Shown piece after piece: positions 5,549 to 9,976 of a stretch of 10,380 nucleotides of DNA. The notes beneath the pieces were generated by a model. It had not been told where the DNA came from and did no database searches. It was given only the letters and a program-made list of their open reading frames with translations. The stretch is from an uncultured Lysobacteraceae bacterium. GTDB taxonomy: Bacteria > Pseudomonadota > Gammaproteobacteria > Xanthomonadales > Rhodanobacteraceae. The stretch is from contig CAMLSI010000161.1 of the NCBI GenBank assembly GCA_946482585.1, forward strand, positions 1 to 10,380. The letters are read 5' to 3'. The number at the start of each line of letters is the position of its first letter. The first letter of the stretch is position 1. Position numbers and translations under genes: made by a program.

Positions 5549-6754
5549 ATGTCCGACGCCGTCGAATATCCTGCTCTCCACCTCAAGCGCGGCGAAGACG
5601 CGCGGCTGCGCGCGGGGCACCTGTGGGTGTTCTCCAACGAAGTCGACGTCAAGCGCACGCCGCTGACCGGCTTCGCCCCCGGCGAGATCTGCATCGTCGT
5701 CGATCACGCGGGCAAGCCGCTCGGCGTCGGCTACGTCAATCCGAATTCGCTGATCTGCGCGCGGCTCGTCGCGCGCGGGCTCGATCATGCGCTGGACCGT
5801 TCGCTGTTCGTGCACAAGCTCAATGTCGCGCTGAGCCTGCGCGAGCGCCTGTTCGACGAGCCCTACTACCGGCTGGTCTACGGCGAATCCGACGGTCTGC
5901 CGGGTCTGACGCTGGACCGTTTCGGCGACGTCATCGTCGGCCAGACGACGACGGCGGGCATGGAGAGGCTCAAGGACGAGATCAGCGAAGCCGTCGTCAA
6001 GGTACTGAAGCCGCGCGCGCTGGTCTGGAAGAACGACGCCGGCATCCGCAGCATGGAACAACTGCCGGAATACGCCGACATCGGCTACGGCGCGCTCGAC
6101 GCGCCGGTCGTCGTGCGCGAAGGCGGCGTCGAATTCGAGTGCGACGTGATCGGCGGGCAGAAGACCGGCTGGTTCTACGATCAGCAGTCCAATCGCGATC
6201 GCATGGCGCGCTATGTCGCGGGCAAGCGCGTACTCGATGTCTGCAGCTATCTCGGCGGCTGGGGCCTGCGTGCCGCGGCCATGGGCGCGAGCGAAGTGGT
6301 CTGCGTCGACGTGTCGGCGCACGCGGTCGACGCGATCCGCCGCAACATCGAGCGCAACGGCTTCGGCGATCGCGTGACCGCGGTCAAGGCCGATGCATTC
6401 GACGAGCTCAAGCGCCTGCGCGAACTGCGCGAGCGCTTCGACGTCGTGATTCTCGATCCGCCGGCCTTCGTCAAGCGCAAGAAGGATTTCGCCGAAGGCC
6501 GCATCGCCTACCGCCGCCTCAACGAGATGGGCATGCAGGTGCTGTCGCGCGACGGCATCCTCGTGACCTGCTCGTGCTCGTACCACATGCCGCGCGCGGC
6601 GCTGCTCGACAGCGTGCAGCAGGCCGCGCGGCATCTCGATCGCCAGGTGCAGGTGCTCGAGCAACTGCAGCAGGGGCCCGACCATCCGGTGCATCCGGCG
6701 ATCGCGGAAACGGACTACCTCAAGGGCTACATCTGCCGCGTGCTGCCGGCCTGA
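5549..6754 (+). CDS. rlmI: 23S rRNA m5C1962 methyltransferase RlmI
   Basis: RlmI is a SAM-dependent cytoplasmic enzyme that methylates C1962 (E. coli numbering) of 23S rRNA at carbon 5. The protein is 401 residues (E. coli 396). Residues 7 to about 75 form the PUA RNA-binding domain (LKRGEDARLRAGHLWVFSNE). A linking region with YYRLVYGESDGLPGLTLDRF (107-126) and GQKTGWFYDQQSNR (203-216) follows. The Rossmann core has motif I VLDVCSYLGGWG (228-239), ILDPPAFVK (301-309) and TCSCS (340-344), which carries the cysteines expected for m5C catalysis. The C-terminus LKGYICRVLPA matches the family. ATG 5549 fits the family start, with GGA 9 bases upstream; the frame is open back to 5468, but that stretch translates the repeat. 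It is convergent with the next gene, with 29 bases between stops. Confidence 0.94.
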   Translation: MSDAVEYPALHLKRGEDARLRAGHLWVFSNEVDVKRTPLTGFAPGEICIVVDHAGKPLGVGYVNPNSLICARLVARGLDHALDRSLFVHKLNVALSLRERLFDEPYYRLVYGESDGLPGLTLDRFGDVIVGQTTTAGMERLKDEISEAVVKVLKPRALVWKNDAGIRSMEQLPEYADIGYGALDAPVVVREGGVEFECDVIGGQKTGWFYDQQSNRDRMARYVAGKRVLDVCSYLGGWGLRAAAMGASEVVCVDVSAHAVDAIRRNIERNGFGDRVTAVKADAFDELKRLRELRERFDVVILDPPAFVKRKKDFAEGRIAYRRLNEMGMQVLSRDGILVTCSCSYHMPRAALLDSVQQAARHLDRQVQVLEQLQQGPDHPVHPAIAETDYLKGYICRVLPA

Positions 6755-6783
6755 GGCGGGATCGCCGGCTCAAGGCATCCGGT

Positions 6784-8238
6784 TCAAAACAGGCTGAAGC
6801 CGTCGGCGAAGATGCGATCGCCGGCGCCGGCCGCGAGCGTGACGCTGCCGAGCCGCACGCCGGCCGCGCCCGCGTCGCGCGGACTGTTCTGCAGCACGAT
6901 GCCGGGCCGGCCCGCGACGGCGTCGGCGACGACGAGGCGCACGGTGTAGCTGCCGGCGGCGAGGCCGCTCCACTGCAGGCGGCCACGCCAGACGCTCGTC
7001 GCACCGGGTTCCGCCGTGTCGAGCGTGACCGCGAGCGGCGTCGTCGCGCGCACGGCGTTGCCGGCATCGAGCAGTTCGAGCCGGACCTGCGTCGCGTGAT
7101 ACACGGGCGCGCTGCCGCGATTCGCGAGTTCGAGGCGCCACGGCAACGACGCGCCCTGGGCGACCGGATCGCCGAGTACGAAGCGAACGACGCTGAGGTC
7201 GTAGCCGAGCGCGCGCTTGATGCGGGCGAGCGGCGTCGCGAAACCGGGCTGTTCGTGCTTGCCTGCGGGTCCCAGGAAACTGAAGTGGTAGTTGCGCAGC
7301 ACCGTGATCACGTCGTCGGTGTCGGCGGTCCAGGTGTTCTGCTGGCTCGTCGTCGGACTTTCGCCCGAGACCGGATTGACGCGCCAGTTCTGCCGCGCGG
7401 CCGGCACGACGTTGGCGAGGCCATATTCGAGGTTCCAGTCGCCGCTCGCATCGCAGAGCGGAAAACCGTAGATGCAGTTCGCCGTGAACGACGGGAAATA
7501 GTCTTCATGGAAGGCGAAGTCGGCGCCGACGACGTCGGGACTGCGCGCGTAGCGCGTCTGCAGCCGTGCCGTCGCGAAGGCTTGTTTGTAGGCCTCGCGC
7601 ACGGCGACCTTGATCGCGTTGCCGGGCTCGTGCGCGTCGCAGCCGCTCTGGTGCCATTCGCCCCAGAGGCCGAGCAGGCCGACCTGAATCGCGGTGATGC
7701 GCGGGTCCGCGTCGTAGCGCTGCGCGAGCGCCTGCACGAGTTGCACTGCCTGCGTCGCGAACGCCGGCGCATTCCAGTCCGGCGTGCGGCCCGGACCATC
7801 GCCGTCGCAGCTCGTGTAGTCGAATCCGGCGATGTTCAGCGGCGGCTGTTCGAGAAACAGCGGATAGTCGCGCTCGGGCTGGCCGCCGGTGTAATAAAAC
7901 GAGAGCCCGGTGCCGACGCTGTCGGGATAGTCGGCGACGAGGCGCAGCACGAACGTGGCCTCGGGATCGTCCGCGAGGATCGGCTGCAGGTGGCGCTGCT
8001 CGAAGCCGGCCCAGTCGAACACCTGATCGGCGGTTTCCAGCTCGCGCCAGGGTACGTAGACGTGGTAGATGCTCGCGCCGTAGTGGTTGTCCGCGCCGCC
8101 CTGCGCCCAGGTCGAGCCCCAGAGCATGTAGCCCTTGTGCGGATTGTCGAGGTCGTCGCTCGTCGCCGCCGGCGTGAAGTCGAGTGCCGAGGCCGTGGTG
8201 CCGAAGAGCCACAGCGCAAGAGCCGCAATCGCTTTCAT
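6784..8238 (-). CDS. Secreted DUF4874/DUF4832-like protein, putative glycosidase-like
   Basis: This 484-residue protein starts with a Sec signal peptide (hydrophobic 3-13, likely cut after TASA, residue 18). The mature part begins with DNPHKGYMLWGSTW (31-44) and continues with VYVPWRELE (60-68), VLRLVADYPDS (97-107), and LLGLWGEWHQSG (188-199). This order resembles the TIM-barrel proteins annotated with DUF4874 and DUF4832, which are glycoside-hydrolase-like but without an assigned reaction. E194 in GEWH and E293 in VSGES are candidate catalytic acids by analogy with retaining clan-A enzymes; that is inference. A beta-sandwich (about 365-465, LPWRLELANRG, GLAAGSYTVRLVV) follows. The last residues, GDRIFADGFSLF, match the tail of the neighbouring secreted protein. 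GGAAG lies 6 bases before the ATG. It is downstream of the modular gene on the same strand by 145 bases and convergent with rlmI. The substrate is unknown. Confidence 0.8.
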   Translation of the reverse strand: MKAIAALALWLFGTTASALDFTPAATSDDLDNPHKGYMLWGSTWAQGGADNHYGASIYHVYVPWRELETADQVFDWAGFEQRHLQPILADDPEATFVLRLVADYPDSVGTGLSFYYTGGQPERDYPLFLEQPPLNIAGFDYTSCDGDGPGRTPDWNAPAFATQAVQLVQALAQRYDADPRITAIQVGLLGLWGEWHQSGCDAHEPGNAIKVAVREAYKQAFATARLQTRYARSPDVVGADFAFHEDYFPSFTANCIYGFPLCDASGDWNLEYGLANVVPAARQNWRVNPVSGESPTTSQQNTWTADTDDVITVLRNYHFSFLGPAGKHEQPGFATPLARIKRALGYDLSVVRFVLGDPVAQGASLPWRLELANRGSAPVYHATQVRLELLDAGNAVRATTPLAVTLDTAEPGATSVWRGRLQWSGLAAGSYTVRLVVADAVAGRPGIVLQNSPRDAGAAGVRLGSVTLAAGAGDRIFADGFSLF

Positions 8239-8339
8239 CGCCTGCTTCCGGGAATGGTTGACGGCGCCGACTGTACGGCGGTTGCCGGCCAGGCGTGCGG
8301 CGCCAGGTCACACAACGGTTGCGACCATCGTATGAGTGC

Positions 8340-8373
8340 CGCGAAGCCGGGGCGGCGATACGCAGGCTTCGCG
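8340..8373 (-). terminator. Hairpin after the modular secreted-protein gene
   Basis: A perfect 9-base inverted repeat, CGCGAAGCC (8340-8348) and GGCTTCGCG (8365-8373), surrounds a 16-base loop, starting 10 bases after the stop at 8384. There is no T-run on the minus strand after it, so it is a 3'-end hairpin rather than a clear intrinsic terminator. The rest of the gap (8239-8339) shows no confident promoter for the DUF4832-like gene. Confidence 0.4.
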
Positions 8374-8383
8374 CGCGGTTCCG

Positions 8384-9976
8384 TCAGTTCTCGAAGCGGT
8401 TACGGAAGATCCGATCGCCGTCGAGCACGAAATCGATGCCGCCCGTGCTTTGTCCGACACTGACCGTGATCGGCGTGCCGAACGTCTGCGGGCCGCCGAA
8501 CACGCACGGATAGCCGGAATAGACCTGACAGGCGTCGTAGCCTTCGGCGGTCAGAAAATAGGTTCCCGGCAGGATGGGCGGCGTCACGTAGCTGCCGCTC
8601 GCGTCGACGTTGTGCTGCCAGATCGCTGCGCCCGTCGCGGCGGAAAACAGCGAGAACCGGAGCGGGCCCGGCGTCACGGCGTCGACCTGGCCGCTCACCG
8701 TGCCGCCGCGCGCGAGCGCGAAGTCGTAGGTCGTGTCGCTGCCTTCGCCGACCGTGAGCATTTCGCCGCCGGCCATGTCGCAATCGCGCGGACACGGGCG
8801 GTCCGGCCAGATCACGCCGACGTCGTCCGCCGTGCCGTCGGTGTGGAGGCGGAACTGTTGGCCCGGCGAAGCGTAAAAGCGATAGCTGCCGTCGGCCGCC
8901 GTCGTCGCTTGGAGATGGCTCGGGATGAGGATGCCGATCAGGCGCAGCTGGCGCACGCGCACGCCGGCGAGCGGCTGCTGCGTCGCCGCGTCGCGTACGG
9001 TGCCGCGGACGATCGCGCGCGGCGCGATCGCGAAGTCGATGCCGCTGATCGTCTCGCCGGCCGCGAGCGTGATCGGCGTGCCGTCCGTGATTGTGCACGC
9101 CGTATTGCAGGGGCCGGCGCCGTAGAGGTAACGCGATTCGAGCGCGTGATTGATGCCGAAGGTCGTCGACGCGATCGCGTAGTACGTGCCGGGCGCGAGT
9201 CCGCCGGTGCGGTAGTCGCCGTCGCCGCCGTAGACGCCGAGCAGATCGCCGTTCGCATCGTAGATCCCGATCTCGGCGGTGACGGGCTGGTTCGTCAGCG
9301 CATCGCGGACGTGCCCGGCGATCGCGGCGCCCGGACTCAGAGCGAAGTCGACCTGGGTGCGCGTCTCGCCGTCGCCGAGCACGACCACGTCGAACTGCTG
9401 CATGCCCTGGATCGCCGGGGCATCCTGGTGGTCGTAGCACTGCATGCGCAGCGTCGAGGCCGCGTTGATCGTACAGACGCGGTAATTGCCCGGACGCAGA
9501 GGGCCGATCTCATACAGCCCCTGGGCGTCGATCACGTCGCCGCTGCAGTCGGTGTACTGGCCCTGGCCGGTGATGTCACGACAGGCCTCCACTTCGACTT
9601 CGTTCTCCAGCGGAACGCCCGCGGACACCTGGCCGGCGATCGTGCCGGCGCGCGCGAGCGCGAAATTGATCTGTACCGCGCCGGGAGTCGCCGGCAGGTA
9701 CTGTCGTTCCGGGAAATACGGAGAGAGATTGGCGACGAGGAAGCAGCGATCGTCGCAGTCGGCGGTCAGCGTGTAGTGGCCGGTCGGGTCGGTCGCGGTC
9801 CGCGTGACGAGAATCGGCACTATGAAACCGGGCGAGTAGAGCGCGACGTCGACGCCGGCGATCGGCGTCAGGAAATCCGCTTGAGTCACGCGGCCGCTGA
9901 GGTTGTAGACGGCCGCCGCGGCCGGGCCGATGGACAACAGCAGGAACAGCGACAGCAGCAGGCGACGCAGCGACAT
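8384..9976 (-). CDS. Secreted protein of five carboxypeptidase-regulatory-like modules
   Basis: The 530-residue product has a signal peptide (MSLRRLLLSLFLLLSIGPAAA, cut near 20-22) and then five prealbumin-like beta-sandwich modules of about 100 residues (CarboxypepD_reg/Cna-B type). Each opens with a strand such as TIAGQV (112), AIAGHV (218), IVRGTV (322) or TVSGQV (426), has a central L-x-PG-x-Y turn (RPGNYRV, APGTYYA, LPGTYFL), and closes with an I/V/Y-DFAL strand (103, 209, 313, 417, 514). Cysteine pairs recur before the closing strand (GPCNTACT, RPCPRDCD), suggesting disulfides outside the cytoplasm. The protein ends GDRIFRNRFEN directly after the last DFVL strand. Such modules are structural or carbohydrate/protein-binding; no catalytic motif is seen. 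ATG 9976 was chosen because the signal peptide follows it and TATACT lies about 30 bases upstream; the frame runs open to 10279. No Shine-Dalgarno is visible. It is divergent from lgt. Confidence 0.82.
   Translation of the reverse strand: MSLRRLLLSLFLLLSIGPAAAAVYNLSGRVTQADFLTPIAGVDVALYSPGFIVPILVTRTATDPTGHYTLTADCDDRCFLVANLSPYFPERQYLPATPGAVQINFALARAGTIAGQVSAGVPLENEVEVEACRDITGQGQYTDCSGDVIDAQGLYEIGPLRPGNYRVCTINAASTLRMQCYDHQDAPAIQGMQQFDVVVLGDGETRTQVDFALSPGAAIAGHVRDALTNQPVTAEIGIYDANGDLLGVYGGDGDYRTGGLAPGTYYAIASTTFGINHALESRYLYGAGPCNTACTITDGTPITLAAGETISGIDFAIAPRAIVRGTVRDAATQQPLAGVRVRQLRLIGILIPSHLQATTAADGSYRFYASPGQQFRLHTDGTADDVGVIWPDRPCPRDCDMAGGEMLTVGEGSDTTYDFALARGGTVSGQVDAVTPGPLRFSLFSAATGAAIWQHNVDASGSYVTPPILPGTYFLTAEGYDACQVYSGYPCVFGGPQTFGTPITVSVGQSTGGIDFVLDGDRIFRNRFEN

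Follow-up and report, generated by a model that had tools for sequence, protein, structure and literature searches.

The stretch of DNA analysed here, the window, comprises 10,380 nucleotides of contig CAMLSI010000161.1, from an uncultured bacterium of the Lysobacteraceae. Two genes on its minus strand, co-directed and separated by 145 bases, encode exported proteins that end in nearly the same short tail. The initial annotation had noticed this pair and called the two proteins unrelated; the sequence confirms the tails, and as judged by Pfam matches the two bodies are indeed unrelated. The tail appears to be one copy of a portable linear element of about nine residues, D-x-[ILV]-F-x-[DN]-[G/R]-F-E, which we call the tag, in its G or R form. 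Almost certainly the tail is a sorting signal of some kind. The features of the two genes are as follows.

6784..8238, minus strand: gene 1, exported DUF4832 protein of 484 amino acids (sequence, Pfam, homologues, AlphaFold2)
6787..6822, minus strand: gene 1 tail tag, GDRIFADGFSLF, of the G form, its end diverged to SLF instead of E (sequence, low predicted local distance difference test score (pLDDT), homologue tails)
6919..7383, minus strand: DUF4832 domain match, residues 286-440 (Pfam)
8185..8238, minus strand: probable signal peptide of gene 1, residues 1-18 (sequence; cleavage site by eye)
8384..9976, minus strand: gene 2, exported protein with CarboxypepD_reg/SdrD_B-like repeats, 530 amino acids (Pfam, relatives, sequence)
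8387..8419, minus strand: tail tag of gene 2, GDRIFRNRFEN, R form (sequence; relatives' tails; R/S form in 21 of 39 genomes, see below)
9911..9976, minus strand: probable signal peptide of gene 2, residues 1-22 (sequence; cleavage site by eye)

The product of gene 1 starts with MKAIAALALWLFGTTASA and ends with GDRIFADGFSLF. It matches the Pfam profile DUF4832 (PF16116) with an E-value of 4.5e-12 and 46.6 bits, against a curated cut-off of 29.2, and has relatives with 88% identity in a metagenome-assembled genome (MAG) of the Rhodanobacteraceae and 68% in Tahibacter amnicola. The product of gene 2, whose start was chosen from a relative of 530 residues (P0121), begins with MSLRRLLLSLFLLLSIGPAAAA, ends with GDRIFRNRFEN and matches CarboxypepD_reg (E 1.8e-17, Pfam); a relative from Tahibacter sp. 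is 77% identical. These named relatives put the window close to Tahibacter/Rhodanobacteraceae.

DUF4832 is a Pfam domain of unknown function, and an AlphaFold2 model of gene 1, made with an alignment of 75 rows, is well folded (mean pLDDT 90.6). The last strand spans residues 461-469. After it confidence falls, with block means of 55 and 42 over residues 471-484 and values below 50 at 480-484. The tail is thus predicted to hang off the domain, unpacked. Among 120 listed of the 188 DUF4832 homologues found, the tail is present in 46 by a narrow regular expression and in 66 by a broad one. None of the 36 listed homologues longer than 560 residues has the narrow tail; they have another C-terminal region instead, and three of these long proteins carry names from Kiritimatiellae or Kiritimatiellia. 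Four tail-less homologues of a length like that of the window protein (P0086, P0095, P0101 and P0120, one of them named Lysobacter sp.) stop at the last strand. Since such homologues end there and the modelled tail has low pLDDT, the tail is an optional appendage of DUF4832 proteins. As for gene 2, 12 of its 14 closest relatives match the tail expression, mostly in the R form; among all 66 relatives, 10 have the R form and five the G form or the long form of Acidobacteriota described below.

How widespread is the tail? We searched the 398 genomes of the order to which Dokdonella fugitiva belongs (the main set) with a DNA pattern for the strict G form, D-x-[ILV]-F-x-[DN]-G-F-E, that has no stop codon in it; the reversed pattern, run on the same genomes, served as control. 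The strict form gave 1,210 matches in 108 genomes, with 1-53 copies each, and the reversed pattern gave two. AT-rich and GC-rich genomes encode the same peptide with different codons. A broad pattern (last residue E or D; middle residue G, R, S, C or W) matches 80 times in D. fugitiva (G001; G, L and P numbers denote genomes, loci and proteins), and its control four times in 80 genomes. The consensus is DxIFxDGFE. Across one genome per species, D-x-I-F-x-[DN]-G-F-E occurs in at least 115 stretches, and many of the 80 listed come from Lysobacterales (Dokdonella, Tahibacter, Rudaea, Wenzhouxiangella, Marinicella) or Thermoanaerobaculia. The motif is present in 8 of 247 Acidobacteriota genomes, and in three of these the copy numbers are 6, 11 and 24 (control 0). 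In a class-wide sample 5 of 229 Gammaproteobacteria match, with more than one copy only in D. fugitiva (control 2). The initial annotation associated such endings with Lysobacterales; they do occur in that order, and in some Acidobacteriota too.

Several variants of the element were seen. A long form, DxIFxDGFESGDTSAWSxTxP followed by a stop, is common in Acidobacteriota genome G008 (L186-L205) and occurs once among the fetched loci of G046 (L222), which belongs to the Dokdonella order. Near the C-terminus, repeated tags such as DLIFKNGFEDFIFANGFE stand in tandem in L212 (3176-4645), L225 and L217, with examples in G087, G170, G190, G060 and G080; in L212, L217 and L225 they are followed by a shared CPAF ending. 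In proteins of Chloroflexi and similar ones (L001, L019, L033, L100), DxIFxDGFESGxLSxWS opens a probable beta-sandwich segment, often after Thr/Pro repeats. These segments are a possible origin of the long form. We did not retain an origin of the tail in a Chloroflexi jelly roll, as the segment model is poor (mean pLDDT 57) and few of the 78 protein-search hits look like true relatives.

The position of the tag is strongly biased. Strict copies from fetched regions of six genomes number 86, the D. fugitiva set (17 of 21) being the only one that spans all strict matches of its genome. A stop follows within 25 residues in 74 of the 86, where position alone would give 6.4%; the enrichment at C-termini predicted by the initial annotation is therefore real. 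With the looser pattern D.[ILV]F.[DN]GF, 213 of 239 stop-bearing frames have the motif no more than 30 residues from the stop (frames cut off earlier having been dropped). By a home-made heuristic, 66 of the 74 C-terminal cases have a signal peptide, four are cut off and four have none. The 197 C-terminal carriers, with their tails removed, fall into 91 clusters at 60% coverage. Hence the motif is on signal-peptide proteins of many folds, as had been foreseen, and is not confined to homologues of the two window proteins. Tails are mostly 9-22 residues long. A window resembling a transmembrane helix (17 residues, mean Kyte-Doolittle value of at least 1.6, within the last 45 residues) is found in two of 204 cases, and three or more K or R in the last eight residues likewise in two of 204, in agreement with the earlier view that this is not PEP-CTERM, GlyGly-CTERM or LPXTG.

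Not every copy is terminal. The tag directly follows the signal peptide in two GH18 enzymes (L153, 449-1651; L072, 6154-7434), in a sulfatase (L029, 5518-7734), in a DUF1800-like frame read by eye (L164) and, in tandem, in a protein with a weak metalloprotease match (L214). In L182 it lies in the linker between CBM5/12 and a weak GH18 match. Copies lodged between signal peptide and main domain occur in both the G and the R form (also L302, L307). Such copies weigh against a C-terminal processing signal that is cleaved. The initial annotation considered a terminal motif of this kind typical of a sorting, processing or secretion signal; the sorting part is supported, and the processing part sits badly with a motif that is not strictly C-terminal.

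None of the NCBIfam or Pfam models matched the 28 tail peptides submitted. Four solved structures matched the tail at E 0.03-0.4 (three pertussis-toxin-like subunit N-terminal parts and one designed protein), which we read as chance. The literature searched, whose scope lay outside bioRxiv preprints and most subscription papers, holds no description of the tail. Within the reach of these literature and library searches the tag is undescribed.

The bodies that carry the tag are informative. In a scan of 76 representatives at E up to 0.001, 25 of 77 matched NCBIfam families and 25 of 110 Pfam families were listed. NCBIfam matches, with curated cut-offs not shown for most members, include choice_anch_Q (five of 76), rhombosortase-dependent and myxosortase-dependent M36 (four each), NxxGxxAF choice-of-anchor and ScyF PEP-CTERM (two each), and choice_anch_D, MXAN_5453 MYXO-CTERM, ExeM-GG and an LPXTG-anchored peptidase (one each). 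Bodies from families that elsewhere carry other sorting signals are the pattern of a sorting signal. A single known family behind the tagged bodies was considered and rejected, since among the families listed the best reaches only five of 76 (NCBIfam) or four of 76 (Pfam). Tagged bodies also match the GbpA, LapA, ExeM, VesB-like immunoglobulin (Ig) and GH18 families, which we take to be cargo families of the type II secretion system (T2SS).

A candidate reader of the tag comes from the same secretion system. GspD was searched with TIGR02517 in 40 tag-rich members of the order, three Acidobacteriota and 36 genomes with no tag. Of these 79, 78 gave a hit, 72 of them over the cut-off, and many tag-rich genomes had two GspDs of full length. 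The second copy forms its own clade, type A, when 40 hand-chosen GspDs are placed in a tree; 11 of the 12 sampled tag-rich genomes are in this clade. The twelfth, G136, is represented in the tree by its other GspD and shows type-A pieces in the profile search. The clade also holds the tag-zero genomes G127, G157 and G020, with G070 and G163 further out. The other GspDs form a second clade, type B, presumably Xps, with rows from 9 of the 12 tag-rich genomes, which are all those for which such a copy was fetched. A type-A profile built from 11 GspDs has 614 positions, nearly all of which align to GspD chains of solved structure (5-594 or similar). The adjoining GspC, in the frame before gspD, exceeds the cut-off of PF11356 (HR domain) in all four cases read, and all four have a C-terminal PDZ-like domain (PDZ_2 at 36.0, 30.6, 26.6 and 26.2 bits, cut-off 27). 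gspE and gspF were recognized in the cluster by eye. Judged by these domains, namely the GspD N-domains plus secretin and a neighbouring GspC with an HR domain, the type-A cluster is a canonical T2SS.

Type A and the tag occur together. The profile matched 160 times at E 1e-100 across the 398 genomes. Calling a GspD type A at 595 bits or more gives 125 genomes, or 129 with four lower-scoring pieces from tag-bearing genomes (G122, G161, G185, G388). By score, type A is present in 86 of the 108 tagged genomes and 46 of the 52 with ten or more tags; with the pieces these figures become 90 and 49. It is present in 39 of 290 tag-zero genomes. Counting all 160 matches gives 90 of 108 tagged, 49 of 52 tag-rich and 70 of 290 tag-zero genomes. 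Fisher p values for the co-occurrence range from 1e-18 to 1e-39, kinship being ignored. Of the co-occurring transporter or protease that the initial annotation had named as support, a transporter was found, as a correlation: a T2SS.

Were type A the reader of the tag, a variant would be expected in those type-A genomes that lack the strict form. The stop-anchored pattern [ILV]-F-x-[DN]-x-F-E-stop was found in 9 of these 39 genomes (11 matches, reversed control 3) and in 3 of 40 genomes lacking both tag and type A (3 matches, control 3). This search revealed R or S at the position of the tag's G. When searched for without the stop, the R/S form appeared in 21 of the 39 (166 copies, up to 25 per genome, control 0) and in none of the 40 sampled genomes lacking both (Fisher 8e-9). 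The search was not blind, since the letter R was partly learnt from the stop-anchored search that preceded it; R was already present in the tail of gene 2 in the window and in the pattern of the initial annotation. Of 28 R/S copies in the loci fetched, 20 have a stop no more than 25 residues away; among the remainder, some come directly after a signal peptide. A 38-row GspD tree includes eight of the 21 R/S-form genomes, and seven of these fall into one clade of nine rows. Four of the 39 exceptions, G282, G323, G238 and G372, branch outside a core of 29 rows, and eight tag-less genomes are inside it.

To take kinship into account, we built an rpoB tree with 60 genomes. Of 80 sampled systematically, 73 had rpoB, and 13 of these went unused, including the tag-rich G165 and G170. 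Three clades that lie apart in the tree lack type A (9 rows, 11 of 12 and 15 rows), and the broad pattern finds 0-2 tags in all of them. In their sister groups type A is present, mostly with 4-80 tags. In the third clade, lower-scoring GspDs that had been set aside are present in five of its 15 rows (G050, G070, G090, G255, G330). Seven independent pairs could be drawn; the tag, at four copies or more, is concordant in 4.8 of them on average and never opposite, with a median p of 0.0625.

The reading that we favour is that the tag is a portable sorting tag read by the type-A T2SS in Lysobacterales, and on genome comparison we consider it about evenly balanced between right and wrong. The element is usually the last part of a Sec-exported protein and sometimes the first after its signal peptide; genomes rich in it have dozens of proteins that carry it. 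What the computation shows is the tag itself, where it sits, the range of folds that bear it, its use in the place of known sorting signals and its co-occurrence with type A. After Sec export and folding, the flexible tag would be recognized in the periplasm by the type-A T2SS (gspC-gspD, gspE, gspF), which would move the protein to the surface or to the outside. Recognition would fall to GspC or GspD and, as a specific guess, would occur by PDZ strand addition; this step and the transport across the outer membrane are what we infer. PDZ domains bind C-termini or extended strands. A disordered tail of aromatic and acidic residues would fit recognition of this type, and the N-terminal copies of the tag make strand addition a better fit than binding of the carboxylate. 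A study on Vibrio reports that the PDZ domain of EpsC is required for secretion of VesB and that beads bearing PDZ capture a VesB-Ig fusion (PMC12369372); another finds loops that are composite and flexible, and flexible segments are proposed there as T2SS recruitment elements (PMC7949064). A stronger version, in which the tail is a universal linear T2SS signal that a dedicated GspC recognizes through its PDZ domain, and the receptor of each lineage determines whether G or R is used, is tentative and may well fail.

A number of observations weigh against a T2SS as the reader. A review says that linear T2SS signals are excluded and that substrate recognition is not known (PMC9251779). Type A is absent from 18-22 of the 108 tagged genomes, among them G126, G131 and G190, which have 15-32 tags; G190, a genome on many contigs, gave no GspD hit at all. 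Conversely, 18 of the 39 type-A genomes without the strict tag are also without the R/S form. The 31 lower-scoring GspDs that were set aside (nine at 532-539 bits, 22 at 464 or below) are all from tag-zero genomes. No clustering of tags at type-A gspD is visible: within 16-20 kb, a regular expression found the tag in 4 of 10 loci, a density near that of the whole D. fugitiva genome (no formal test), and L234 adds a tail without the final E. In the pair test no threshold reaches p 0.05; 1, 2, 3 and 5 copies give 0.5, 0.5, 0.25 and 0.125. Type A called by score alone, or with all 160 matches counted, again gives 0.0625 at best, and removal of three suspect MAGs leaves, at three copies, four pairs with p 0.25. 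Corrected for kinship, then, the link between tag and type A is suggestive, being consistent but not significant, and it has no unrelated family of patchy distribution as a control. Among Acidobacteriota, GspC was matched neither in nine tagged genomes nor in 31 untagged ones by a model that is not sensitive, since it also misses G108 and G018, which carry a type-B GspD. G008, G009 and G555 show only GspD hits below the cut-off, and the one Acidobacteriota secretin locus that was read is pilus-like by gene order (pilMNOPQ). Either there is another reader for the long form in this phylum, or the link to a T2SS is not the essence of the tag.

What else might the tail be? It could be a surface-retention tag, held by a receptor in the outer membrane or matrix after secretion by any route. 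The type-A T2SS would then not read the tag, and the two would have only their ancestry and lifestyle in common. We think this rather unlikely, though it deserves attention. It would accommodate copies at either end and in linkers, the tandem copies of some genomes, the use of the tag where other families have anchors such as MYXO-CTERM or GlyGly-CTERM, and its presence in Acidobacteriota that have no GspC hit. Retention alone does not explain the joint absence of tag and type A from three clades, nor the R/S form in type-A genomes, and no receptor gene has been identified.

Improbable, in our judgement, is a C-terminal processing signal, at or before which a protease or transpeptidase would cut in order to join the protein to lipid or sugar, as with PEP-CTERM or type IX substrates. 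The terminal preference (74 of 86) and the exchange with sortase-type signals speak for it. A helix-like window in just two of 204 cases speaks against it, and at the copies after the signal peptides of GH18 enzymes, a sulfatase and others, cutting would not anchor the body; SprA, of the type IX system, was found in 0 of 47 genomes by a search that is weak evidence, as it matched in no control genome either. We give slightly less credence still to a structural leftover with no sorting role, such as the strand that opens a jelly-roll or Ig-like module, or else one that caps the preceding domain. The long form DGFESGDTSAWS does open internal segments in Chloroflexi proteins, and the initial annotation saw the tail where a next module would begin. 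Set against this, the tail follows 91 clusters, AlphaFold2 leaves that of gene 1 unpacked, tail-less DUF4832 homologues end at the same strand, and a stop codon mostly comes shortly after the tail. Each of the two tails is short when taken alone, so a chance resemblance might be imagined; 1,210 matches against two for the reversed control, together with the position bias, rule it out for practical purposes.

The surroundings of the tag genes were also inspected. A TPR Ser/Thr kinase is the largest neighbour cluster, at 12 of 188 loci (one member scanned). An extracytoplasmic function sigma factor (PF07638) occurs at 4 of 188 (two members scanned); L041 (1742-5322) and L107 (5389-5949) are among the loci with kinase or sigma factor neighbours. 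Two further clusters of four loci each had no Pfam match in the member scanned. We rejected neighbours as readers of the tag: the kinase and the sigma factor look regulatory, and the counts are raw, without comparison to the genome background. The rest of the window contains, by eye, a RapA-like helicase, a CstA-like carrier, a small membrane kinase, an RlmI-like methyltransferase and an Lgt-like gene start. Very long open frames run antisense to likely genes or overlap them (3-2381 and 5623-8463 on the plus strand, and others), probably because of the high G+C content.

If the type-A T2SS does read the tag, the tag would be a linear address for a system whose recognition is described as unknown and not linear. 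With a nine-residue tag on dozens of candidate cargo proteins and a candidate machine in the same genomes, T2SS recognition could be tested by the swap of one peptide. Even with another reader protein, the tag would let localisation be guessed by sight for many proteins, for instance in D. fugitiva with its 80 broad matches.

Known systems offer several parallels. Like PEP-CTERM with exosortase, GlyGly-CTERM with rhombosortase and MYXO-CTERM with myxosortase, the tail is a short C-terminal region that unrelated exported proteins, dozens in a genome, have in common, and some of the body families are the same. Unlike these three, it has no transmembrane helix or basic cluster and tolerates other positions; it differs from LPXTG substrates in its consensus, DxIFxDGFE, and again in having no helix. 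The type IX C-terminal domain is a folded unit of about 70-100 residues. The tail resembles it as a C-terminal address on Sec-exported proteins that lacks a transmembrane helix, and departs from it in being about 9-22 residues long and, in one model, unpacked instead of a folded domain. A type I signal is a poor comparison because tagged proteins mostly have a Sec signal peptide (66 of 74 by the heuristic). The choice-of-anchor families of NCBIfam are bodies whose signals depend on lineage, whereas the tail would itself be a signal, a new one in the place of those. A further likeness is to the T2SSs Out, Eps, Pul and Xps, whose cargo, like the tagged proteins with their signal peptides, is exported by Sec and has many folds. 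The signals described for these systems are composite or structural and specific to a substrate, as in the loops of Pel3 or the PDZ-dependent Ig fold of VesB, whereas here one linear peptide would serve many folds.

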